Positions 36,801 to 49,000 of a stretch of DNA of 54,904 nt are shown here, one piece after another. The notes beneath the pieces are model-generated. The model worked only from the letters and a program-made list of their open reading frames with translations. It was not told the origin of the DNA and searched no databases. The translations under genes were made by a program, and so were the position numbers. The DNA comes from a virus. Position 1 is the stretch's first letter; every line of letters starts with the position of its first letter. The stretch is from positions 1-54,904 of IMG/VR virus record IMGVR_UViG_3300033273_000309; one strand, given 5' to 3'.

Positions 36801-39209
36801 CTGGTTGTTTCGGATACCGCAACTATATCCGGAGTCCTCGATGAATCTAGAGTTAGATCTTATAATGAATCTTCAATTCTTAATGATTCTCAACAACTAT
36901 TTGATTATGGTCTAATAACAGATCCAACTACGGCACTATCGGCCGATTATGGATTTGTTACTGAGATTCCAAATGAGAATACTGAGGAATTTGGAGTTGT
37001 TTCTGAAGTTCCAACAACATTGTATCCATTCGGATCAATAACAATTTCTGGAACTCCACTCCTATATCCAGATATTGATCTACAACCAGCATATACTGGT
37101 TCTGGAAGTATTACGATTTCTGGTTCCGCTTCTGAAAGTGAGACTGAAGACTTCGGTAGTGGTCGTCGTCGTGGTGGTAATATTAGATTCTGTGGTGATG
37201 CACTCTACACTGAAACTGATTCTTATGCTGGATTTACAACAAATCCAATTACACTTTCTGGAACTCTTCTTGAAAGTGAGACTGATTCTTATGTTGGACT
37301 TGGCACTATATTCATCTCTGGCAATGCTCTCGAAAGAGATGCAGAGTCTTATGTCGGTCTTGGAACAGCGACATTCTCTGGAACTGCAGTCGAAAGGTTC
37401 ACTGGAGATACTCCAGATGGAACTCAACTCTTCACAATTTACGGCGAACTCAATCATCCAGATATTGATCTCACTCCACATTATGGTATTGAGAAGAATA
37501 TTGGTGTCGGTACAACTGGTATTCAGATATCTGGTACTGCACTTGAATCTGAATCTGATGTTTATACTGGTCTTGGAACAGTCTTTACTGTTAATGGACT
37601 TAGCCCACAAGATACCGAAACTTATCCTGGCGGACCAGGTGTTGGAAGATCTTGGAGTTTCACAAGATCAACTTACATTGGAGACTCTGGTCCAATTACA
37701 ATTACAACTGGAGTCGCTCAAACTCATTATTATTCACCAATCTACCCAAGAAATGCTCTCATTGGTGATCCTGGTTCTGGAACTGGACTCATCAGAATCA
37801 ATGATGATAAAGGACTTGCATTCACCAGAGCGGTTCTACCAATCTTTGGTAAAGGTAGTATCTATGTTCTCGGTATTGGTACTACCGCAAATGGAGATCT
37901 TGAAGGTGTCGAAATTGGTGCATTTGAGAGCTTTACTCCTGCAACAGAGATTGGTGTTGGTCTCTTTGATATCTCTGGAATTGCAGATACTGCAGAAATC
38001 AATGTCTTTGGATTCTATGGAGATGATGCGGATCCAGGAACTTCTGGTCTCTTCACAATCTCTTCACAGACTGCACCAATTGTCGAGAAGTTTGTTTCTT
38101 CTTGGGTTGGTATTGGAACAGTATATGTCTCAGACAGAAGTGTCGAAAGAAATACCGAATCTTACTTTGGATCTGGAACAATATCTGCATTGTCTGGAGC
38201 AGCGGAAGCCTACTCTGCACAAACTCCAGAAGATACTGCTAATATTATAATTTCTGGAGACGCTAAAGAATCATTCACCAGACAACCATACACTGGTAGT
38301 GGATCAGCTACATTCTCTGGAGCTTCTGTTGTTCAATATACCCCAGCTCCTGATGGTTCGGGTACTATCAATGTTGATGGTGATGCAATTGAATCTACAA
38401 CTGCAGATTATGTAGGAAGTGGAGAAGTTGTAATTGGCAACAAACCAACAGTTGATACTGTACGTGATACTGTCGATTCTGATGAAATTACATCAGATGA
38501 ACAGGGTTCTGCACATGTATCGTTTGTTGCAAATCCACCAGAAGATACAATTCTGTTCAATATCTCTGGAAATGCAGATACTTCCGAGACTGCTCTCTAT
38601 ACAGAGATAGTAACTGGTCTCTTCACATTATTTGGAACTTTCCAAGATCTCAAACTTACCAACTCCGAGTCTGGAATTGGTACTATCTTCGTTACAGATT
38701 CGGCGGCCGCCCGCGAGCGCGATACTTACATTGGATCTGGATCTCTATTCGCAATATCCAGCTCCGACAGTCTCTACAGCGCACAGACTCCAGAAAATAC
38801 AGTCATTCTACAAATTTCTGGATCCGCGATCACTTCAGTCGAGTCAGACTTCTCCGCAGTTGGCGTTGGACTATTCACCTTCAACGGAAATGCAATTACC
38901 GCAGAGATTACTTCAATACCAGTTACTGGTTCGGGAATTATTACAATTTCTGGTCAACTCGTTCATCCAGATGTTGCTTTTATTCCATCACCAGATGGTT
39001 TTGGTACGATCAACGTCCTCGGTTCGTCTACAAGTTCCCTACAAAAAGTATGGAACACTACAGGAACATTGTTTGGATTTGGAAGTGGATTCGAATCTCT
39101 CAGCAAATCTACCTATATCGGCGTCGGAACAATTTATGTCGAAGAGATTGATGGATCTACTATCAATAATCCTTATCAAATTCCAAGAAGTTATGTATGT
39201 ATAATTTAA
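33888..39209 (+). CDS. Long repetitive virion protein, adhesin-like (1,773 aa)
   Basis: Starts at GTG (33888) overlapping the previous stop (GTGA), backed by GGAGG. The first ~800 residues repeat a ~75-residue unit made of 'DYGFIT...', 'V.PFGGLSISGSA' and 'SPDDTTGTLFGFGEKLES'. The following ~900 residues repeat a shorter 'GxGtIxISGxAxExxtesYvGxG' unit many times. The composition is acidic, Gly/Ser/Thr-rich and nearly Lys-free, as expected for an extended beta-solenoid or fibre. The C-terminus reads GVGTIYVEEIDG...PYQIPRSYVCII. Exact DNA repeats are present (34974-35347). A GC-rich patch with GCGGCCGC sits at 38702-38720. Context between structural genes and the tail fibre suggests a fibre or whisker-type function. 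No enzymatic motif seen. Confidence 0.75.
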   Translation: MNTFHYNADCGQPDPEIWGGGAVGGPLLVVSGQDFLSNLSKKYIGETPTLRLSDETDSRLIKKYIGDYPTLRFSSFGIEFLVYNVPENVATISFQGEGVSKLITQEELSTANLLSSGFITERRSYDYSNPDSNVEFLTEDDGLITSSVTGTVDYGFITDPLEEHLDYGSTEILENTPAATGLIQVSGVSNNSAFVKEINTVLLEVSGTCIEEVSFDPPIDEAEYENDTSSTLLTFDNTSLTFDASEPKPNIKLTGSSIDLLISNTPEETVDIQNTGIAKESVGYDYSFPTVIPFVQDDDGSITDSVTFVADYGFITGEVSQGNDDLGLIINSSPVLPFGTIANITGSAFVKAPDDIRTYNASGEYRVSYSPDDTTGTLFGFGEKLESTVYDYNLNSENVFVTIDDGLITSPVTLIVDYGFVYETAITGSDDYLTIEVTSSDQPFGSLSVSGSADTQWINKNFSRSDTEGEYRVSYSPDDTTGTLFGFGERIESTTYDYNDSAALILESADSGLITEPVTSIVDYGFVTEIPTGQEDDGLITVAQTLVPFGGLSISGSAETDWTNKNFSGSGQYRVIHNPEASGSLFGFGEKLESRTFEYTDQAVLIVGDPDYGQISVGATTISDYGLVSETHSQTDDLGWVTGFPAVGDVYPFGSITISGDALVSNPGQIPEGTVVISISGIKDESVRYTPEINKKRYDLSFDSGTISLDSTTETFDDTTEQPNIKLTGSYDAPAVHSEVGSGSLFNLGIADESATYDYNNESAVILITTDSGLITDAVTNVVDYGLITDPVIGQDDGGLISDVQTVLPFGGLTVSGSADVEYRNVNIYAEGVVSRTFSPDDTTGTLFGFGEKLESVTHRYTEQSVLIVGDPDYGVIAVGHTRTDDYGVITEVHGQTDDLGWLVGFPAIDDVYPYGSISILGSAEESSISSEVLAGLFVISGSAILDYTPEFIGSGPINVSGSAHVTFSPDLVVSDTATISGVLDESRVRSYNESSILNDSQQLFDYGLITDPTTALSADYGFVTEIPNENTEEFGVVSEVPTTLYPFGSITISGTPLLYPDIDLQPAYTGSGSITISGSASESETEDFGSGRRRGGNIRFCGDALYTETDSYAGFTTNPITLSGTLLESETDSYVGLGTIFISGNALERDAESYVGLGTATFSGTAVERFTGDTPDGTQLFTIYGELNHPDIDLTPHYGIEKNIGVGTTGIQISGTALESESDVYTGLGTVFTVNGLSPQDTETYPGGPGVGRSWSFTRSTYIGDSGPITITTGVAQTHYYSPIYPRNALIGDPGSGTGLIRINDDKGLAFTRAVLPIFGKGSIYVLGIGTTANGDLEGVEIGAFESFTPATEIGVGLFDISGIADTAEINVFGFYGDDADPGTSGLFTISSQTAPIVEKFVSSWVGIGTVYVSDRSVERNTESYFGSGTISALSGAAEAYSAQTPEDTANIIISGDAKESFTRQPYTGSGSATFSGASVVQYTPAPDGSGTINVDGDAIESTTADYVGSGEVVIGNKPTVDTVRDTVDSDEITSDEQGSAHVSFVANPPEDTILFNISGNADTSETALYTEIVTGLFTLFGTFQDLKLTNSESGIGTIFVTDSAAARERDTYIGSGSLFAISSSDSLYSAQTPENTVILQISGSAITSVESDFSAVGVGLFTFNGNAITAEITSIPVTGSGIITISGQLVHPDVAFIPSPDGFGTINVLGSSTSSLQKVWNTTGTLFGFGSGFESLSKSTYIGVGTIYVEEIDGSTINNPYQIPRSYVCII
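34974..35347 (+). repeat. 56-base exact direct repeat
   Basis: A 56-base sequence at 34974-35029 recurs without change at 35292-35347, a spacing of 318 bases (106 codons, in frame). A 35-base core of it appears a third time at 36402-36436. It encodes the YSPDDTTGTLFGFGE motif. Identity at the DNA level implies recent duplication or gene conversion. Confidence 0.9.
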
Positions 39210-39252: not shown

Positions 39253-42200
39253 ATGACTAAGCAGGTACAGATAAGAAGGGGTACTACCGCCCAACATGCA
39301 GTTTTTACGGGTGCCGAAGGTGAGTTAACGTTTAATACAGACACTCATTCAGTTGTCGCTCATAACGGAATTACAACAGGAGGTTATGAACTAGCAAGAG
39401 TAGACTTTGGAAATGTTCCAGATGCGAAATTCGGAGGTATATTTGAAGTTGTTGGTGTTAACACCCTAGCTGTAGGCAATTCGTTAACAGAGTGGGATGT
39501 AAAAGTTGGTCATGGAGATACAACCCTTATTGTTAATGGTTCCCAATTAGTTACTGGAATAATGACGGTCGGTGGACCGGTAACTATTGAGAAAGAATCA
39601 ACAATTATAGGTGGAGTTGATTTTGCTGGAATTAGAACAGAAACTACTGAGGCCGATCCTCTTGGCAATTGGCATGTATCCGTAGGTAAGGGAAATACTG
39701 CTTTCGTTGTAGATCAAGACGCATATATTGGTGGAATTGCGACGGTAACGGAAACTCGTGGTACTGAAGCCACATTTAATAAGTTAACTGTAACAAGTTT
39801 CGGTACAACTACATTTACTCTCGAAACAACTCTTACAGCTGATCTTGGAATCGGAACTAACTTTATCGGTCTTGCATACACTGATGGTGTACAAGTAGGT
39901 GACTATGTAAGTATCGGTACTGCTTTCAATGATGTACAGATTGTTGGATTTGGATCTCTCACAATTCCAGCACAGAATCTAACGTACTTACATACATCAA
40001 TTTCAACAACTATTAGTGCTGGTTCGACTATTATCGGACTTTCCACTCAAATTACTGAAGGTGGCACTGCTGTTTCTGTTGGAAACTCAATCAGTCTAAC
40101 TGGTTATGGCATCACTAATGTTTCTATTACTGGTGTTGGCTTAACAATCACTGGAGAAGAATATAACGAACAAATTTTAACAACCGAAGTTAAAGAAGCG
40201 GTAGGTTCTGGATCTACAATAGTTCCTCTTCTCGGAACTGGTGGAATTTCCATTGGTAACTCATTTACTTCTGGATCCGCAGTAAATCTTCCTATTGTTG
40301 GTCTCGGAACAACTTCAATTGCACCATATAATTCTGGAGTTACAACAAGCACTGCAGTAAGTCTAGAGTTAGGAATTGGTGCTACAGTCGTATATGTAGA
40401 TAGTACTGCTCTTATTGCAATCGGTAACTCTGCAACAATCACACAAGTTGGTACTCAGTATTTTGTAGATGTACCGATTACAGGTGTAGGAAATACATTC
40501 TTCACAATTCCAACTGGAAGTGAATCGATTGGCACTGTAGTAGTTCCTGCTGGATCCGTTGTTGCAATTAGTACCATCTTAACGGGTGCTGAAGCTGTAA
40601 TTCTTGGCACTAATGTAGGAACAGCCCTTACTACAGGAGCTCCTGTTTCGATCTCCACAGTAACTGCCGATACTTGGGATGCAGTTAGTATCGGAGCTGG
40701 AGATACTATTGGTGTAGGAATTACAATTGGAACTTTGGTAGCGATTTCGACCTATACAACAGTAGGTACAGCAGTTACTATTGGTATTGGTTCAACTTCA
40801 AGTTCTGCTGTTGCTGTAGGTGACACTGGAGTCACTATCAGAAGATACGCAGATGTTGGAACCACACTTAATATCGATGTTCTGAATACCAAGAGTTTAG
40901 ATATTGTTGGAATCATGACCTTAAATGGTCTAACATTCCCAACAGATGATGGTAAGAAAGGTCAAGTATTAACTACTGATGGTGAAGGAAACATCGGATT
41001 CTCAACAGGATCTGGAGCTGGTGGTTCTCAGGTTCTCGTTTATGTTTCTCAGGCAACTGGTGATGATCTAAACGATGGTAGAACTCTACCAGTTAAGACG
41101 ATTAAGAGAGGCGCTCAAATCGCTTCGTTCTTGGGTTATTTCTATAATACTGGTTCAACAATTCTTGTTGAATCTGGTGACTACATTGAAGAAAACCCAA
41201 TCATTCTCTATGACAACGTTAACATTATTGCAGACTCACTAAGAAACGTTGTTGTTAGACCTAAATTTGCAGCTGGAGACCTATTTAAGGTAAGAAACGG
41301 TTGTTATGTTACTGGATTAACACTAACCGATCTTCTCGATGAAGATTCGAGAGCTCCACAACATACATTTGGTTATTCCGTCTCGTTCGACGAACCATTC
41401 AATAACGCAATTGATAGAACTGGTTATGCTGCAACGGGAGTTTCTGGAATTACTTCGGTACTTTATGAGCATACCTCTGGTATTACAACAATCATAACCG
41501 ATAGAGACCACGAATTATATCCTGGAAATACGGTAAGACTTTCTGGTCTTGCATTTACTTGTGGTTATGATGAAGCTGGTATTACTACCTTTAAGTATGA
41601 TCATTTGAGTGGAGTTGCAACAATCACCTCATATACCAACAGAAATTACGCCGTTGGTAATAAAGTATACCTACACAATCTCCCATTCTCTTGTTCTGAG
41701 GAACATGCTGGAATTACTACAACCATTTTCCCAGATGGAACATCTCAATATGGATATGTTTTCGAGATTGTAGGCATTAATTCAGCTGAGAAGACATTCG
41801 CAATTAATGCTGGTATTTCTACAATTCCTCACGTTTATGAAGGTTGGGGTAGAAACTTTGTTACTGGTTGTGAGTATACAAATACAACTGGTATTTGCAC
41901 CGTAACTGTTAACACAGGAGTATCTACTGAACATGGATGGCATGAAAACGATATGATCTCATTGGAGGGGTTAAACTTCTCCTGTGTTGGATACACTGCA
42001 AATGCTCAGGTTAATATTAGTAATGTAGTATATAATGAAGTTGTTGGTCTTGTAACTGTCACTACATCAGCCGCTCACAACGCAAAAGTTGGTGGAGAGG
42101 TAAAACTTGGAGATATTGAATTTACATGTTCTGGATATACTCAAAATGCTCAAGTCAATATTACAGCAATTGACTACAATGAAGCAGCTGGTATCTGCAC

Positions 42201-45200
42201 AATCACCACTGATGCTGATCATGGTGGAACGATTGGTAAGGAAGTTACACTTGCTGGAATTGAATTCTCATGTTCATCAGAACACGCTGGTGTTACTTCA
42301 ACCACATTCCCATATGAAGGTTCAAGTCCAAATACGGTAGGTGGAAGATACGATAGATTTATCATTAGTGGTATCAATAGTGCAACACAATTTGAAATCA
42401 ATGCTGGTATCACCACTATTGCACATACATATGTCTCTGGTGGTACTGCACAGACAGGTATTACATCAACCACATTCCCTTATCCAGGTTCAAGTGCATT
42501 CGCAGTAGGTTCAAGTTACGATAGATTTGTAGTTACAAAGGTTAATAGCTCAACGGAATTTGAATTCCACGCTGGTATTTCTACCATTGCACATACATAT
42601 GCCTCTGGTGGTTATGCACAAGCTGGTATTACAACGACTGTCTTCCCAGACGGAACCGCTGGTAGAGGTGGCGGAAATGAAACCGGTCTATCCGCTGATG
42701 GATTTAGTTATAAGATAACTGGAGTTACCACAAATACCTTCACATTTAATGCTGGTATTTCTACCATTGCACAGACATATATCTCTGGTGGTACTGCTGG
42801 TATTATTCCTACGGTACAAAAAGTAAATACATACCCAGAAGAAAATTCTGACGGAAGAATTGACTTTGGTGTCTTTAAGGCAGAAAATACAAACGAACTA
42901 ACAATTAGAGCTGGTATCAGCACCGTCAAGCACTATTATACGCAGGGTGGAGACTTAGTACTCAGTAAACCACTGATTAACAAGTCACCATATATTCAGA
43001 ACTGTTCGATTCTTTCTTCTCTTGGTGGTAATGGTATTCTGGTTGACGGTGACAAGGTACTGTCTCCAAACATCCCACCAGTTCAAGGAATTGCAGAGAA
43101 CCCACCTGTAGGAGATACTCCTGAGTTTGGTAAGTCGATGGTTGCTGCAACCTTTACCATGATCTCCTTCGACGGTATTGGTTGGAGGGTCATCAACGAC
43201 GGTTACTCACAGGTTGTTTCTTGTTTCCAAATCTTCTGTCGTTACGGATCTCTTGCACAGTCTGGTGGATATCTATCTATTACCAACTCCGCAACCAACT
43301 TCGGTGATATCGCTCTAAGGGCAACAGGATTCTCACCAAAAGCATTCGCTTTTGATAAGGGTCGCGTTGCTGCAACTGGTACTTCTGGTGGATTGCAAAC
43401 ACTTAAGTGCGTTGGATTCGGTAGAAGTGATCAAGATCTCTACGTACTAAGATTCCTCAATGATGACTTTGAGGATAAGACAAGTACCTTCAAACCAATT
43501 GTTCAAGAAGCTACTGTTAACCCATCAGTTGGTATTAATACTGACACTGACCTCATTACGGTTACAGGTCACCCATTCCAAGAAGGCGATTCTGTCGTAT
43601 ATCTAGGAAACGAACAGGTTGAACCACCAGTTGTTATTAATGGACTGGTTAGTGGAAACATTTACTATGTACAATATATCGATTCCAATACCTTTAGACT
43701 CTACGAGGATGAGTCGCAGAGAAAACCAATTGATATTAAAGATCCTCTACCAGTTGGTATCAATACCTTCCAGAAGAATAACCAGGAATTCATTGTTGAT
43801 CAGATTATTTCTAATCACAATGTCTATCAAGAACTAACTTTCGTTGGCGCATCTACTGCATTCTTCCAATCTGGTTCTCTTGTAACACAGAACGTAAGTG
43901 GTGGTCAGGCAACAGGTTATGCATTAACATATCACGCTTCTCAACAGAAACTAGTTGTTTCGGTTGAAGAAGTTGGTGGTGCAAGATATATGTTTGATGA
44001 GGGAGCAGGTGTTGGTGGTCTCGGTGGTAATATCACTGACAACACTGGAAATGTTTCCTTCGCTGTAACCGCAATCGCCGGAGTTACAACTTACAGAACC
44101 ATTGAGTTTAAAGTTGATTCAACAGTACCTGGTAATGTTATTCAGGGTATTGGAAGTCTACCAGTTACATACAGATGTCATTTACACAGACCATCTATTG
44201 TTAACTCTTCCGCACACACCTGGGAATATTCAGGTTCAGGTACTGACTATAACGCATTACCTCAGAACGGCGGTAAAGGTGATGGAACAACCGAACAGGT
44301 TTCTGAACTCGGTGGTCGCGTTTACGCTTCTGGTACAAACGAACTTGGTGACTTTAAGATTGGTACACAAATTACCGCAGTTAACAGAACTGGTAACATC
44401 TTCTTTAACAACAAGGTTTCTATCGGAGAACTGGATTCTATCAAACTTTCCCTCTCTGGTGGTGTTTCTGTTGAAGAATTCTCAACTGATACCAATCTCG
44501 GTGAAGGAGAACTCGGTGGTCCACTCAATAAGAGAGTCTCCACTCAGTTAGCGGTAAGAAGCTTCCTCGCAAACAGACTTGGAACATTCATTGATAAGAC
44601 CGTATCTCAGAATGCAATTCCTAATGCGGTTGTTCAGTTGAACTCTTCTGGTCAGATTAACGCTGACTTGATTCCACCTAAGATTGTTAACTACACAAGA
44701 ACTCTAGTTGGAAATGGTAAAACCGTTCTTGCTAACCAAATTCCACCTATTAGAATTAATCAGGGCGACACAGTTGTTGAACCAGAGAACTCCTTCGTAC
44801 TTGTTAATGATACTGTAAGTCAGTATTTGATTCTGGATAGCAATACTACGGATTATAATTTCAATAACGGAGATGAGGTTGTTAGTGCTCTTGCATCCAG
44901 TGCAATTGGTATTGTAACAACTCCACCAAATGGCGTCGGTGTTGGTACTACCGTCAAACATTATACTGGTTACGGACAAACAGGTCTTGTTAAGGGTGTT
45001 CTCAACACAGTAACAATTCAGAACGCTGGTTCTGGATATTCAAATGCAGGAATTTACAGTGGAGTACCACTTGTAGCTTCTAGTGGTGTTGGTGTTGGTG
45101 CATCTGCAATCATTACTGTTTCCGCAAGTGGAACAGTCATTGATGTTGACGTTCTAACAGGTGGTAAAGCGTATGAAGGTGGTGATATACTTACAGCGTC

Positions 45201-47682
45201 CGATGCAGACGTTGGCGGACGTTCTGGTGGTGCTGCGTTCACTGTTCAGGTTGGTAGCGATGTCGAAACCAGACTCTACCTCAAACTAACCAACTTCAAT
45301 AAGTTCGTTGGAAGTAGTGTTCTTTCTGACTACATTGCAGATGGAAACGCTATTGGACTTTCTACCACACTTGACCTTGATTACAATATTACTGATATTG
45401 ATCCAACTTCTCAAGAGACTGGTGGAGATATCGACTTCTCAAATGATAGAATTATTGTTGGAGTTGGCCACTCTTTACAAGACGGTGACGTTGTTAAGTA
45501 CACTACAAACCTCGGAACAAATATCGCGGGCATTGTTGATCAAAACTCCTACTATGTTAAGAGAGTTGGTTTATCATCTGTCGAACTTCACACCAATTAC
45601 TTACTATCAGACAGACAGGATCTAACTGGTAGTGGAATTGGAACACACTCACTTCTCAGAATCGGTATTTCTACCGCAGAAGATAGAATTCACTTCATCA
45701 ATCACGGATATTCCGCAGGAACAGCTGTAAGGGTTACTGGAAATACTCCAATCGGAGTTAATACAAACGCATTCTACTATCTTGGTTCAATCACCGTTAA
45801 CGGATTTACACTTCATACGACACAGGCGGATGCTCAGTCATCTGTTGGTGGTGTATCATTCAACCCAGTTGCAATTGGCGCAAGTGGAGCGGGTACAATC
45901 ACATTTACAGAACAGAATGTAAGATACTCTGATACTGTTAATACTTCATCGACAGATGCAGATAACTGGTCACTACTCGCACAACAGGATATTGACGCTG
46001 CAAACATCATCAGCGGCACTATCTCACCTTCCAGATTGGGTAACGGTGCTGCGAACTCCGACACATTCCTAAACGGTAATTCTTCTTACCAGAAGGTAGT
46101 TACCAGTGTTGGAATCGGTTCAACACAACCATTCGGAATTACCGCATCCAGCGCGGATTATGGAGTAGGATTCAGCACATTCTACGGTCAAATCAACCTA
46201 ACTGCAAATAGAGTTCAGTCAACTCTTGATCTCTATTCAACCACTGGTGTTGCGAAATTCAAGTCATCAACTTTCTCTATCGGTACAGATGGTGAAGTAC
46301 AAATTAAGAATTCTGCAACTGGTGACGTTGACGCAGCTCAACTTGGTGGTCAAACTGGTGCTTACTACTTGTCACTATCTAATGCAACTGGTGTTCTACC
46401 AATTAGTAAGGGTGGTACAGGTAACACGGGCGCGCCCGCGAACGGCGCACTCCTAGTTGGTAATGGATCCGCCTATAACTTGACTTCCTCACCATCCCTT
46501 GAGGGAACCTACTACTTCCGTAGAAACAATGGTAGTTACGTAGGTAACACAAGTAACTACGCACTTCAGGCGTACTCAACTGGCAACAACGCCGCGGGTA
46601 TGTCCTTCCACAAGGGTGGTTACTATGCAGTCAATATGGGTCTGGATACTGACAACGTATTCAGAATTGGTGGTTGGTCTGCTTCCTCGAATAGATGGGA
46701 ACTGACGATGGGTGGTGACACCTACCAAGCAGGTAACGTCTACGCATACAGATTCTATGATCGTAACAACACTGGTTACTACATGGATCCTGCAGGCACA
46801 TCCAACACAAACTCGATACAGATCAATGAGAGATGTTGGGTTGGTTACATTGACTTCAAGGGAACTGGTGGCAACAGTGGATACAGCACAAGAGCTTACT
46901 CAATCTACCAAGAGGGTGGTGGATGGAGTTATCCATATCCTGACCTAAGAATTGCATATCACACTGGTATTAAACTCGGTGCAAACGCTGGTTCTTACGA
47001 AGGAACTAGGGTATATACCGACTACAACATGTCTGATCTTGTAGTTCAACTCGCAGGTCCATCCAACTATACCTTCAGGAAGAAGTGGTTTAGGGTTGAT
47101 AACTCCACTGGTATGTACTCAGATACCAATAGCGCTCATATCTATCCAAACCCAAATAGATATGGTTCCTGGAGAATTGATGGTAACAGAAATGGCTGGT
47201 GGGGCTTAGGCTTCGAACAGCAGAACATGCAACTGATGATGAACTACAACTCTTGTGGCATCCACAGAGGTGACTACGGTTGGCAGTTCCACGCTCACAA
47301 CGGTAGAATGTATGTCTATGGCAACTACCACTCTGGTTGGTCTGATGAAAGACTCAAGGAAAATATCCGTGACTTCACGGGCGAAGAGGCGATCGAGAAG
47401 ATTTCTCAACTCAGAACGAGAATCTTCAACTGGAACGCCAAGGCGAAAGAAATTTATGAAGATGTCAATCCAAATGAAGAGGTCGGATTCGTCGCTCAGG
47501 AGATGCAGGAAGTTCTTCCAGATCTCGTTGTTTACAACAAGTCCAAGAGAAAGGCTGATGATGAAGAATACCTGACAATCACCTGGGATAGACTGATTCC
47601 TTACGCTATTGGTTCTATAAATAACTTGAGAGAAAGAGTTGAATCTCTAGAAGAAAAAGTTTCCAAATTGATAGGAGAGTAA
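39253..47682 (+). CDS. Long tail fibre with beta-helix and C-terminal S74 chaperone domain (2,809 aa)
   Basis: N-terminus KQVQIRRGTTAQHAVFTGAE, then GELTFNTDTHSVVAHNG (residues 3-40), is the standard phage-fibre attachment module. A beta-sandwich repeat region follows. Residues ~595-700 (VYVSQATGDDLNDGRTLPVK...VNIIADSLRNVVVRPKF) are a DUF1565-like beta-helix start, which seems to resume at ~1240 (SPYIQNCSILSSLGGNGILV). EHAG/FPDGT repeats (~732-1233) lie between. Later come a GxGY unit (~1924), ISKGGTGNTGAPANGALLVG (~2383) and NNTGYYMDPAGTSNTNS. The C-terminus (~2692-2809) is a peptidase S74 intramolecular chaperone: SDERLKENI with Ser2697 and Lys2702 as the expected dyad, then EEVGFVAQEMQEVLPDLV and a final coiled coil. 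Self-cleavage before Ser2697 would release the chaperone after trimer folding. Confidence 0.88.
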   Translation: MTKQVQIRRGTTAQHAVFTGAEGELTFNTDTHSVVAHNGITTGGYELARVDFGNVPDAKFGGIFEVVGVNTLAVGNSLTEWDVKVGHGDTTLIVNGSQLVTGIMTVGGPVTIEKESTIIGGVDFAGIRTETTEADPLGNWHVSVGKGNTAFVVDQDAYIGGIATVTETRGTEATFNKLTVTSFGTTTFTLETTLTADLGIGTNFIGLAYTDGVQVGDYVSIGTAFNDVQIVGFGSLTIPAQNLTYLHTSISTTISAGSTIIGLSTQITEGGTAVSVGNSISLTGYGITNVSITGVGLTITGEEYNEQILTTEVKEAVGSGSTIVPLLGTGGISIGNSFTSGSAVNLPIVGLGTTSIAPYNSGVTTSTAVSLELGIGATVVYVDSTALIAIGNSATITQVGTQYFVDVPITGVGNTFFTIPTGSESIGTVVVPAGSVVAISTILTGAEAVILGTNVGTALTTGAPVSISTVTADTWDAVSIGAGDTIGVGITIGTLVAISTYTTVGTAVTIGIGSTSSSAVAVGDTGVTIRRYADVGTTLNIDVLNTKSLDIVGIMTLNGLTFPTDDGKKGQVLTTDGEGNIGFSTGSGAGGSQVLVYVSQATGDDLNDGRTLPVKTIKRGAQIASFLGYFYNTGSTILVESGDYIEENPIILYDNVNIIADSLRNVVVRPKFAAGDLFKVRNGCYVTGLTLTDLLDEDSRAPQHTFGYSVSFDEPFNNAIDRTGYAATGVSGITSVLYEHTSGITTIITDRDHELYPGNTVRLSGLAFTCGYDEAGITTFKYDHLSGVATITSYTNRNYAVGNKVYLHNLPFSCSEEHAGITTTIFPDGTSQYGYVFEIVGINSAEKTFAINAGISTIPHVYEGWGRNFVTGCEYTNTTGICTVTVNTGVSTEHGWHENDMISLEGLNFSCVGYTANAQVNISNVVYNEVVGLVTVTTSAAHNAKVGGEVKLGDIEFTCSGYTQNAQVNITAIDYNEAAGICTITTDADHGGTIGKEVTLAGIEFSCSSEHAGVTSTTFPYEGSSPNTVGGRYDRFIISGINSATQFEINAGITTIAHTYVSGGTAQTGITSTTFPYPGSSAFAVGSSYDRFVVTKVNSSTEFEFHAGISTIAHTYASGGYAQAGITTTVFPDGTAGRGGGNETGLSADGFSYKITGVTTNTFTFNAGISTIAQTYISGGTAGIIPTVQKVNTYPEENSDGRIDFGVFKAENTNELTIRAGISTVKHYYTQGGDLVLSKPLINKSPYIQNCSILSSLGGNGILVDGDKVLSPNIPPVQGIAENPPVGDTPEFGKSMVAATFTMISFDGIGWRVINDGYSQVVSCFQIFCRYGSLAQSGGYLSITNSATNFGDIALRATGFSPKAFAFDKGRVAATGTSGGLQTLKCVGFGRSDQDLYVLRFLNDDFEDKTSTFKPIVQEATVNPSVGINTDTDLITVTGHPFQEGDSVVYLGNEQVEPPVVINGLVSGNIYYVQYIDSNTFRLYEDESQRKPIDIKDPLPVGINTFQKNNQEFIVDQIISNHNVYQELTFVGASTAFFQSGSLVTQNVSGGQATGYALTYHASQQKLVVSVEEVGGARYMFDEGAGVGGLGGNITDNTGNVSFAVTAIAGVTTYRTIEFKVDSTVPGNVIQGIGSLPVTYRCHLHRPSIVNSSAHTWEYSGSGTDYNALPQNGGKGDGTTEQVSELGGRVYASGTNELGDFKIGTQITAVNRTGNIFFNNKVSIGELDSIKLSLSGGVSVEEFSTDTNLGEGELGGPLNKRVSTQLAVRSFLANRLGTFIDKTVSQNAIPNAVVQLNSSGQINADLIPPKIVNYTRTLVGNGKTVLANQIPPIRINQGDTVVEPENSFVLVNDTVSQYLILDSNTTDYNFNNGDEVVSALASSAIGIVTTPPNGVGVGTTVKHYTGYGQTGLVKGVLNTVTIQNAGSGYSNAGIYSGVPLVASSGVGVGASAIITVSASGTVIDVDVLTGGKAYEGGDILTASDADVGGRSGGAAFTVQVGSDVETRLYLKLTNFNKFVGSSVLSDYIADGNAIGLSTTLDLDYNITDIDPTSQETGGDIDFSNDRIIVGVGHSLQDGDVVKYTTNLGTNIAGIVDQNSYYVKRVGLSSVELHTNYLLSDRQDLTGSGIGTHSLLRIGISTAEDRIHFINHGYSAGTAVRVTGNTPIGVNTNAFYYLGSITVNGFTLHTTQADAQSSVGGVSFNPVAIGASGAGTITFTEQNVRYSDTVNTSSTDADNWSLLAQQDIDAANIISGTISPSRLGNGAANSDTFLNGNSSYQKVVTSVGIGSTQPFGITASSADYGVGFSTFYGQINLTANRVQSTLDLYSTTGVAKFKSSTFSIGTDGEVQIKNSATGDVDAAQLGGQTGAYYLSLSNATGVLPISKGGTGNTGAPANGALLVGNGSAYNLTSSPSLEGTYYFRRNNGSYVGNTSNYALQAYSTGNNAAGMSFHKGGYYAVNMGLDTDNVFRIGGWSASSNRWELTMGGDTYQAGNVYAYRFYDRNNTGYYMDPAGTSNTNSIQINERCWVGYIDFKGTGGNSGYSTRAYSIYQEGGGWSYPYPDLRIAYHTGIKLGANAGSYEGTRVYTDYNMSDLVVQLAGPSNYTFRKKWFRVDNSTGMYSDTNSAHIYPNPNRYGSWRIDGNRNGWWGLGFEQQNMQLMMNYNSCGIHRGDYGWQFHAHNGRMYVYGNYHSGWSDERLKENIRDFTGEEAIEKISQLRTRIFNWNAKAKEIYEDVNPNEEVGFVAQEMQEVLPDLVVYNKSKRKADDEEYLTITWDRLIPYAIGSINNLRERVESLEEKVSKLIGE
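41449..42950 (+). repeat. EHAG/FPDGT-type repeats within the tail-fibre gene
   Basis: About six units ending in NAGISTIPHVYEG-like text (for example SEEHAGITTTIFPDGTSQYG, SSEHAGVTSTTFPYEGSS, AQTGITSTTFPYPGSS and AQAGITTTVFPDGTAG) occupy residues ~732-1233. The same repeat family is at 18480-19330 in the giant gene. Confidence 0.8.
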
Positions 47683-47686
47683 ACAC

Positions 47687-48121
47687 ATGGCTTTAACAAT
47701 GCCGACTTATACGGATCCAAGAGGATATGAATGGGAAAACCCATACCTTGTAATTACTTCCGTTAAGGTCAGGAAAACACTAGTTCCAGTCACCCAGTTA
47801 GCTGACGGCCCCGATCCCGGACCCCTTCCACAACACTTGGGTGAATCTGGAAACTATGGATATATTACGGTTGACGTATATCGTTCAAAAGCGGATAGAG
47901 AAGTAGGAAAACTGCCTATTTCTCAAATCGCAGAAAGACCTGCTGATGCATGGAATGCTCCATGGCATGAAGTTGGAAATGAACAGTCAAGAAACCCAGA
48001 AACATATGTACCTATGATTTTCAAGGTTAGATATGTTGATGAGGGTAATTTGATTTCTGATGCATATACTCACCTAACAACCAATCACCCTTTCTTCCAG
48101 AATTGTACTTTTGTTGAATGA
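47687..48121 (+). CDS. Hypothetical protein downstream of the tail fibre (144 aa)
   Basis: 144 residues starting four bases after the fibre stop (TAAacacATG), so probably co-translated with the fibre. It reads MALTMPTYTDPRGYEWENPY, then LVITSVKVRKTLVPVTQLAD, a Pro/Asp-rich loop (GPDPGPLPQHLGESGNYG), YITVDVYRSKADREVG, and FKVRYVDEGNLISDAYTHLT near the end. The strand-rich, soluble composition resembles a virion or fibre-associated protein. The position directly after a fibre is where fibre chaperones or adhesins (as T4 gp38) often lie, but no sequence feature supports that beyond location. Confidence 0.7.
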   Translation: MALTMPTYTDPRGYEWENPYLVITSVKVRKTLVPVTQLADGPDPGPLPQHLGESGNYGYITVDVYRSKADREVGKLPISQIAERPADAWNAPWHEVGNEQSRNPETYVPMIFKVRYVDEGNLISDAYTHLTTNHPFFQNCTFVE

Positions 48122-48140
48122 TATTATCTAGATATTAATT

Positions 48141-48148
48141 TATAAATA
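48141..48148 (+). promoter_or_regulatory. Late promoter (consensus TATAAATA) overlapping a hairpin
   Basis: TATAAATA sits 27 bases before the gp13 ATG. Its 3' half is also the base of the left arm of the hairpin at 48144-48175. By T4 spacing, transcription would begin around 48154-48156, downstream of that arm. Confidence 0.75.
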
Positions 48149-48175
48149 CCTCTATAGGACTAGGGGTATTTTTTT
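48144..48175 (+). terminator. Intrinsic terminator / RBS-masking hairpin
   Basis: AAATACCTC (48144-48152) can pair with GGGGTATTT (48163-48171; one G-U pair) around a ten-base loop, and Ts run on to 48175, directly before the ATG. The right arm contains most of AGGGG (48162-48166), the only ribosome site for gp13. Transcripts from the fibre operon could therefore be terminated here, or have the site hidden. Confidence 0.7.
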
Positions 48176-49000
48176 ATGGCGCAGCCATCTAGTAGAGCGG
48201 AGTTGAAAGACTATTGCCTCAAACAGTTAGGAAAGCCCGTTTTAGAGATAAATGTAGACGACGATCAAATTGATAATTTGATGGATGATGCCATCCAATA
48301 TTTCCATGAACACCATTATGATGGTATTGATAGAGTTTTCCTAAAACATAAACTAACTCCAGCAACCAAAGATACTATCAGTCAGTTAGGAGTGTCTACA
48401 ACCACTTCAGCAACCGTCACTGGGGATGGATTGACTTCGATCAATTATGTTGAAGGAGTAAACTATCTACCACTTCCAGACTCAATCATTGGAGTCAATA
48501 ACGTATTAAAGATAAATTCGAGTACAGTATCTGACGGACTTTTCAATATTAAGTATCAGTTATTCTTGAATGATGTTTACTATTACGGTGCATTGGATCT
48601 TTTAAACTATGCGATGGTAAAGAGATATCTTGAAGATCTAGATTTCCTCTTAAATCCTAATGCACAGATTCGTTTCAACAAGAAGAATCACAAATTATAT
48701 CTTGATATTGACTGGAGTGAAGTTGGTGAAAATGAGTACATAATTGTAGATTGTTACAGACTTTTGGATGGTGCAGATGCTCCAAAACTTTACAATGACT
48801 CGTGGTTGAAAAAGTATTTAACCGCATTGATTAAAAAACAGTGGGGTCAGAATATGATCAAGTTCCAAGGAGTTCTTCTTCCTGGAGGAGTTCAACTTAA
48901 TGGTAGACAGATCTATGACGATGGTGTTCAGGAGGTAGAGAAACTAGAACAGAAACTCAGAACTGATTACGAATTACCACCAATGGATCTAATAGGTTGA
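48176..49000 (+). CDS. gp13: Neck protein gp13
   Basis: 274 residues (T4 gp13 is 309). Family features: MAQPSSRAELKDYCLKQLGK, then PVLEINVDDDQIDNLMDDAI and QYFHEHHYDGIDRVFL. The centre has FNIKYQLFLNDVYYYGALDL and the C-terminal half ILNPNAQIRFN-type text plus NDSWLKKYLTALIKKQWGQN. This set, followed by gp14, gp15 and gp16, makes the assignment firm. gp13 forms the head-proximal neck ring that closes the filled head and joins gp14. The ATG lies in the T-tract of a hairpin, with AGGGG nine bases away. gp14 starts one base after its stop. Confidence 0.9.
   Translation: MAQPSSRAELKDYCLKQLGKPVLEINVDDDQIDNLMDDAIQYFHEHHYDGIDRVFLKHKLTPATKDTISQLGVSTTTSATVTGDGLTSINYVEGVNYLPLPDSIIGVNNVLKINSSTVSDGLFNIKYQLFLNDVYYYGALDLLNYAMVKRYLEDLDFLLNPNAQIRFNKKNHKLYLDIDWSEVGENEYIIVDCYRLLDGADAPKLYNDSWLKKYLTALIKKQWGQNMIKFQGVLLPGGVQLNGRQIYDDGVQEVEKLEQKLRTDYELPPMDLIG

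Follow-up and report, generated by a model that had tools for sequence, protein, structure and literature searches.

Some 35 bases directly ahead of the neck gene gp13 of a T4-like cyanophage combine, in their sequence and folding, a late promoter, a terminator hairpin and a ribosome site (positions 48141–48175 of the window, i.e. the whole 54,904-nucleotide stretch of viral DNA that was analysed). The element probably serves as a compact terminate-and-restart boundary between an exchangeable fibre module and a conserved neck operon, and this putative function is supported by anatomy and conservation.

The region 48100–48200 reads TTTATAAATACCTCTATAGGACTAGGGGTATTTTTTTATGGCG, and the features described here are on the + strand. 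The T4-type late promoter box TATAAATA is at 48141–48148, with ATAAATA (48142–48148) as its conserved part. The box is of the NATAAATA type, which is the cyanophage late motif (PMC2984593), and it lies upstream of a late gene. It overlaps the left arm of a hairpin (AAATACCTCTA, 48144–48154), which is connected by the 6-nt loop TAGGAC (48155–48160) to the right arm (TAGGGGTATTT, 48161–48171). The right arm holds the Shine-Dalgarno (SD) sequence GGGGT (48163–48167), 8 nt ahead of the ATG, which is predicted to pair with the anti-SD. A T7 tract (48169–48175) ends at the gp13 ATG (48176); it is the tract of a putative intrinsic terminator and also the SD-to-ATG spacer, and its first three T are paired with AAA. 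An earlier reading made from the sequence alone had correctly placed the box, the right-arm ribosome site and the T-tract that runs into the ATG. It was also right that a hairpin is present, but it undercounted the stem at 9 pairs; folding gives 11 bp, 48144–48154 with 48161–48171, and a calculated stability of −11.1 kcal/mol for the hairpin alone. A stable 11-bp stem that directly abuts a T7 tract has the sequence form of an intrinsic terminator, although termination may be partial because the stem here has only three G-C pairs. An SD in the right arm combined with a late box that lies within or ahead of the left arm is the layout of a T4 gene e-type leader.

The nested element ahead of gp13 is not a chance product. 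The folded region has a z of −3.24 relative to dinucleotide shuffles, and none of 200 shuffles was equally stable. There are 16 [A/C]TAAATA boxes in the window, and only the box at 48141 is nested in a terminator-like hairpin (0.06 expected by shuffling). The number of TATAAATA copies is not significant (4 found vs 5.8 expected in this AT-rich window), and therefore the case is built on nesting and conservation.

gp13 encodes a neck protein of 274 aa (head-tail adaptor Ad2; 48176–49000, + strand; phrog_211, E 1.4e-45), which shows 86% identity to the neck protein of Synechococcus phage S-SCSM2R. Upstream is a tail-fibre gene for a protein of 2809 aa (39253–47682, + strand), the C-terminus of which resembles an S74 intramolecular chaperone. 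The fibre gene and gp13 are separated by a 144-aa open reading frame (47687–48121, + strand) that gave no match in the PHROG comparison; a similar open reading frame is present in L050. Just ahead of the fibre gene, at 39150–39207, is the end of a small open reading frame (...NNPYQIPRSYV...) that by eye is like the reading frame ends found directly ahead of gp13 in L026, L032 and L052. This likeness may point to shuffling of fibre cassettes. Across the whole window, neither the Rfam nor the tRNA scan gave a match.

A gp13 protein search led to 80 environmental contigs, and the element is immediately 5′ of gp13 in every one of these that has enough upstream sequence; it is found ahead of gp13 in 49/49 non-redundant close relatives. 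S-SCSM2R is the sole named isolate found with the exact element. Five long or near-complete relatives (162–249 kb) have exactly one copy each, at gp13. Across these 49 members, conservation is 94% over the 29 bases that end in GGTA, vs 51% for the adjoining 26 nt upstream and 76% for gp13 third codon positions. The DNA further upstream sorts into 11 clusters unrelated to one another, and thus homology starts at the element. An element-specific scan was excluded as conservation evidence because the right arm had been fixed in it.

The AT of the putative promoter, the predicted arm pairing and the T-tract are each separately conserved. In the 49 relatives, ATAAATA is 100% conserved, and the first T of the box (78%) varies as NATAAATA predicts. 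The box AT (48142–48143), which is outside the stem and unpaired, is invariant in 49/49. The single box exception found is L413, with CTAAATA, the late box reported for Aeh1 (PMC1524935). In all 49 relatives GGTA is followed by a spacer of T only, 6–8 nt in length. As for the stem, pairing is maintained across variants: in 19 distinct gp13-linked sequences 99.1% of cells are paired vs at most 63.6% with slid partners, which bears out, within the lineage, the expectation of the sequence-only reading that relatives with the same gene order keep the arm pairing. The covariation score is 0.147 vs 0.106 shuffled, with 0/500 shuffles as high, and one inner stem pair is found as C-G, U-G, A-U and G-U. 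In the left arm C and T interchange, whereas the right arm is nearly invariant. Most relatives have the loop GGAAAC or GAAGAC, in which the first and last bases form a 12th pair, G-C. L065, L447 and L448 have the SD variant GAGGT.

The T4 rule, with the late box at −13 to −6 (PMC1524935), places the predicted transcription start (+1) at A48154, where the left arm ends. This A is invariant in the 49 relatives; the start had earlier been put at about 48154–48156, in agreement with the rule. Polymerase reading in from the fibre genes would transcribe both arms, and the hairpin and T7 would end most fibre-gene RNA just ahead of the gp13 AUG. In read-through RNA that escapes, the gp13 ribosome site would be held in the stem, as had been proposed; the calculated probability that the SD is unpaired is 0.00 there, vs 0.26–0.33 in late-start RNA. 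Polymerase with the late sigma gp55 would start within the hairpin sequence, near A48154. RNA from this start would not be terminated at the element, since the hairpin is then without its left arm, and GGGGU would be largely open 8 nt ahead of the AUG. When the left arm is absent, the calculated cost of opening the SD falls from 6.4–10.1 to 2.4–2.9 kcal/mol, a drop of about 4–7 kcal/mol; by calculation, late RNA thus has the SD open and long RNA has it closed. The earlier proposal that late RNA lacks the left arm and leaves the site free stands for the arm, almost all of which is absent, but the site is freed largely and not fully: in the calculated fold of late-start RNA it stays about 70% paired, owing to a weak pairing with gp13 codons. 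Expression of gp13 and of the genes that follow it would depend solely on late RNA started at this promoter, irrespective of the fibre cassette that lies upstream. The window is a 54.9-kb fragment; a T4-type late promoter calls for gp55, gp33 and gp45, and the close relative S-SCSM2R is annotated with a sigma factor, a late coactivator and a sliding clamp.

The analogy to T4 gene e drawn in the sequence-only reading is documented. The ribosome sites of T4 e, soc, 49 and I-TevI are hidden in helices that are absent from late-promoter RNA (PMC3014915, PMC2988022). When refolded, the leaders of e, I-TevI, segB and 49 show the geometry of the window element, with the late box within or immediately ahead of the left arm, the SD in the right arm and the ATG right after. 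The frame of I-TevI, ATAAATACTTCT...AGAGGTATTTATG, is nearly identical to that of the window, ATAAATACCTCT...TAGGGGTATTTTTTTATG. These T4 leaders, however, have 2–3 T compared with T7 in the window element, and being without a T-tract they are without a terminator; none of 96 late boxes in T4 is nested in a terminator-like hairpin. In addition, the T4 switch restrains late genes on early and middle RNA, whereas the upstream RNA in the window comes from fibre genes and is probably late too. As read from its sequence, the window element is the known T4 ribosome-site switch to which a U-tract, and with it a putative intrinsic terminator, has been added, and the addition is new. At the wac/13 junction of T4 (NC_000866, about position 93600) there is a GGGGCCGCAAGGCCCC hairpin and no late box; the junction is structured in T4 too.

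Two other arrangements invite comparison. The PeSL cassettes of T4-type phages (Arbiol et al., in 2010) reportedly consist of a small promoter and a stem-loop at gene junctions, have early promoters and are tied to shuffling of the flanking genes. The window element is similar in having a promoter and a stem-loop at a junction with unrelated flanks, as evident from the 11 upstream clusters. It differs in that its box is of the late type, not an early promoter, and has bases in common with the terminator arm and with the ribosome site. An intrinsic terminator with a separate promoter behind it likewise ends upstream RNA and restarts transcription, and such tandems are found ahead of gp13 in L394, L397 and L392. 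The signals in tandems are separate, whereas in the window about 35 bases accommodate both of them and the SD.

Universality of the composite at gp13 is ruled out: among 213 non-redundant gp13 orthologues (by protein) there are 57 composites, 57 with a late box alone, 71 with neither and a minority with other arrangements, and these automatic junction classes are noisy (L296, labelled ‘box’, is a composite). Beyond the window lineage, many orthologues of gp13 show a promoter but no hairpin, or no promoter. A second way of nesting the promoter at this junction is found in L443, L404, L412, L403, L446, L306, L405, L408 and L411, where a late box (ATAAATA or CTAAATA) is in the loop of a terminator hairpin just upstream of gp13. 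In both the loop and the tandem arrangements the T-tract is well ahead of the ATG. L302, L311, L319, L384 and L396 have, ahead of gp13, a box and an imperfect hairpin without a T-tract, resembling the T4 switch that acts on the ribosome site only, or perhaps a decayed composite. Promoter-less gp13 genes usually abut the upstream gene (gap of 5 nt or less in 57/78), and the intergenic distance in composites is about 51 nt. The upstream genes belong to 20 families in 95 composite loci, 23 families in 66 promoter-only loci and 7 families in 87 promoter-less loci; cargo diversity tracks having an own promoter, not the terminator specifically. Mapped on a tree of gp13, the composite state has switched 11 times, with at least 10 of the changes forced by strong branches and gain indistinguishable from loss, which rules out simple vertical inheritance of the composite. 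Taken with the alternative arrangements, these state changes indicate that the gp13 junction has been rebuilt repeatedly.

Some of these observations bear on whether the element has both proposed activities. It might be a translational switch only, of the T4 gene e and I-TevI type, with the hairpin masking the ribosome site in RNA that reads through and the T-run doing no more than setting the spacing. The geometry shared with the e, I-TevI, segB and gene 49 leaders (PMC3014915, PMC2988022) is in line with this, as are the distant gp13 loci L302, L311 and L384 with their T-less imperfect hairpins, yet a pure-T spacer of 6–8 nt throughout the 49 relatives exceeds spacing needs, and the T4 leaders have just 2–3 T at that place. 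A switch of this kind alone is unlikely. The opposite reduction, a fibre-operon terminator with restart from the late promoter in which the masking of the ribosome site is incidental and has no effect, also seems improbable. T-tract conservation agrees with it, and the loop and tandem junctions retain terminator and promoter with the T-tract at a distance from the ATG; the right arm, however, is more conserved than the left, though G-U pairing would let both arms drift, and this is expected if the right arm is also read as an SD.

It may also be asked whether the box is a promoter at all. The AAATA arm of a plain terminator could make a promoter-like word by accident, with gp13 expressed via read-through or another promoter; TATAAATA is not over-represented in the window and AAATACC-GGTATTT is a natural terminator stem. 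Against this, the AT ahead of AAATA is outside the stem and yet invariant, the lone exception in L413 changes the box to the one described for Aeh1 (PMC1524935), and most promoter-only gp13 loci have ATAAATA about 25–35 nt ahead of the ATG. An accidental box is highly improbable. The reading preferred here is a boundary that would both terminate and restart transcription and gate the ribosome site.

A pattern scan that fixed only ATAAATACC and GGTATTTTTT and left the interior free points to a wider class of nested elements, which is defined by sequence pattern and is found in phages that may all use a T4-type late sigma. Among the matches listed, the free interiors are self-complementary, with 65 distinct stems and 4.31 extra inner pairs vs 0.63 shuffled. 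A start codon is at most 8 nt from the T-tract in 179 of the 189 elements among the matches listed for both DNA scans. The same design, with different stems, is found ahead of gp13 in distant phages and ahead of other genes. Many of the genes behind class elements are gp13; others encode a RusA-like resolvase, a tail fibre, an endolysin and a terminase large subunit. In L223, near position 1379, the gene preceded by a ATAAATACC...GGTATTTTTTATG element encodes an endolysin (phrog_7), and T4 e is a gene of this kind as well. A genome-wide rule in this phage group is ruled out: nested boxes number 3/75 in S-SCSM2R (0.48 expected), 0/16 in the first 50 kb of Syn9 and 0/96 in T4, and the one copy at gp13 in the long relatives also speaks against such a rule. 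At 148612 and 190789 of S-SCSM2R (PQ898602.1), two more late boxes overlap short terminator-like hairpins ahead of other genes.

It is possible, and can be suggested only tentatively, that the element is a portable boundary cassette, i.e. a 35-base insulator and a homology patch for exchange of fibre modules ahead of the neck operon, and that nesting of a promoter in a terminator arose more than once at this junction, with the box in the arm or in the loop. For expression work in cyanobacteria, the element would be a clean and portable part that insulates in one direction. To our knowledge, cyanobacteria are generally held to lack Rho, and intrinsic signals may therefore carry most of the insulation. 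If the proposed mechanism is true, the T4 ribosome-site switch becomes in these phages a combined transcription and translation gate, and an essential structural operon would be made independent of the upstream host-range module within about 35 bases.
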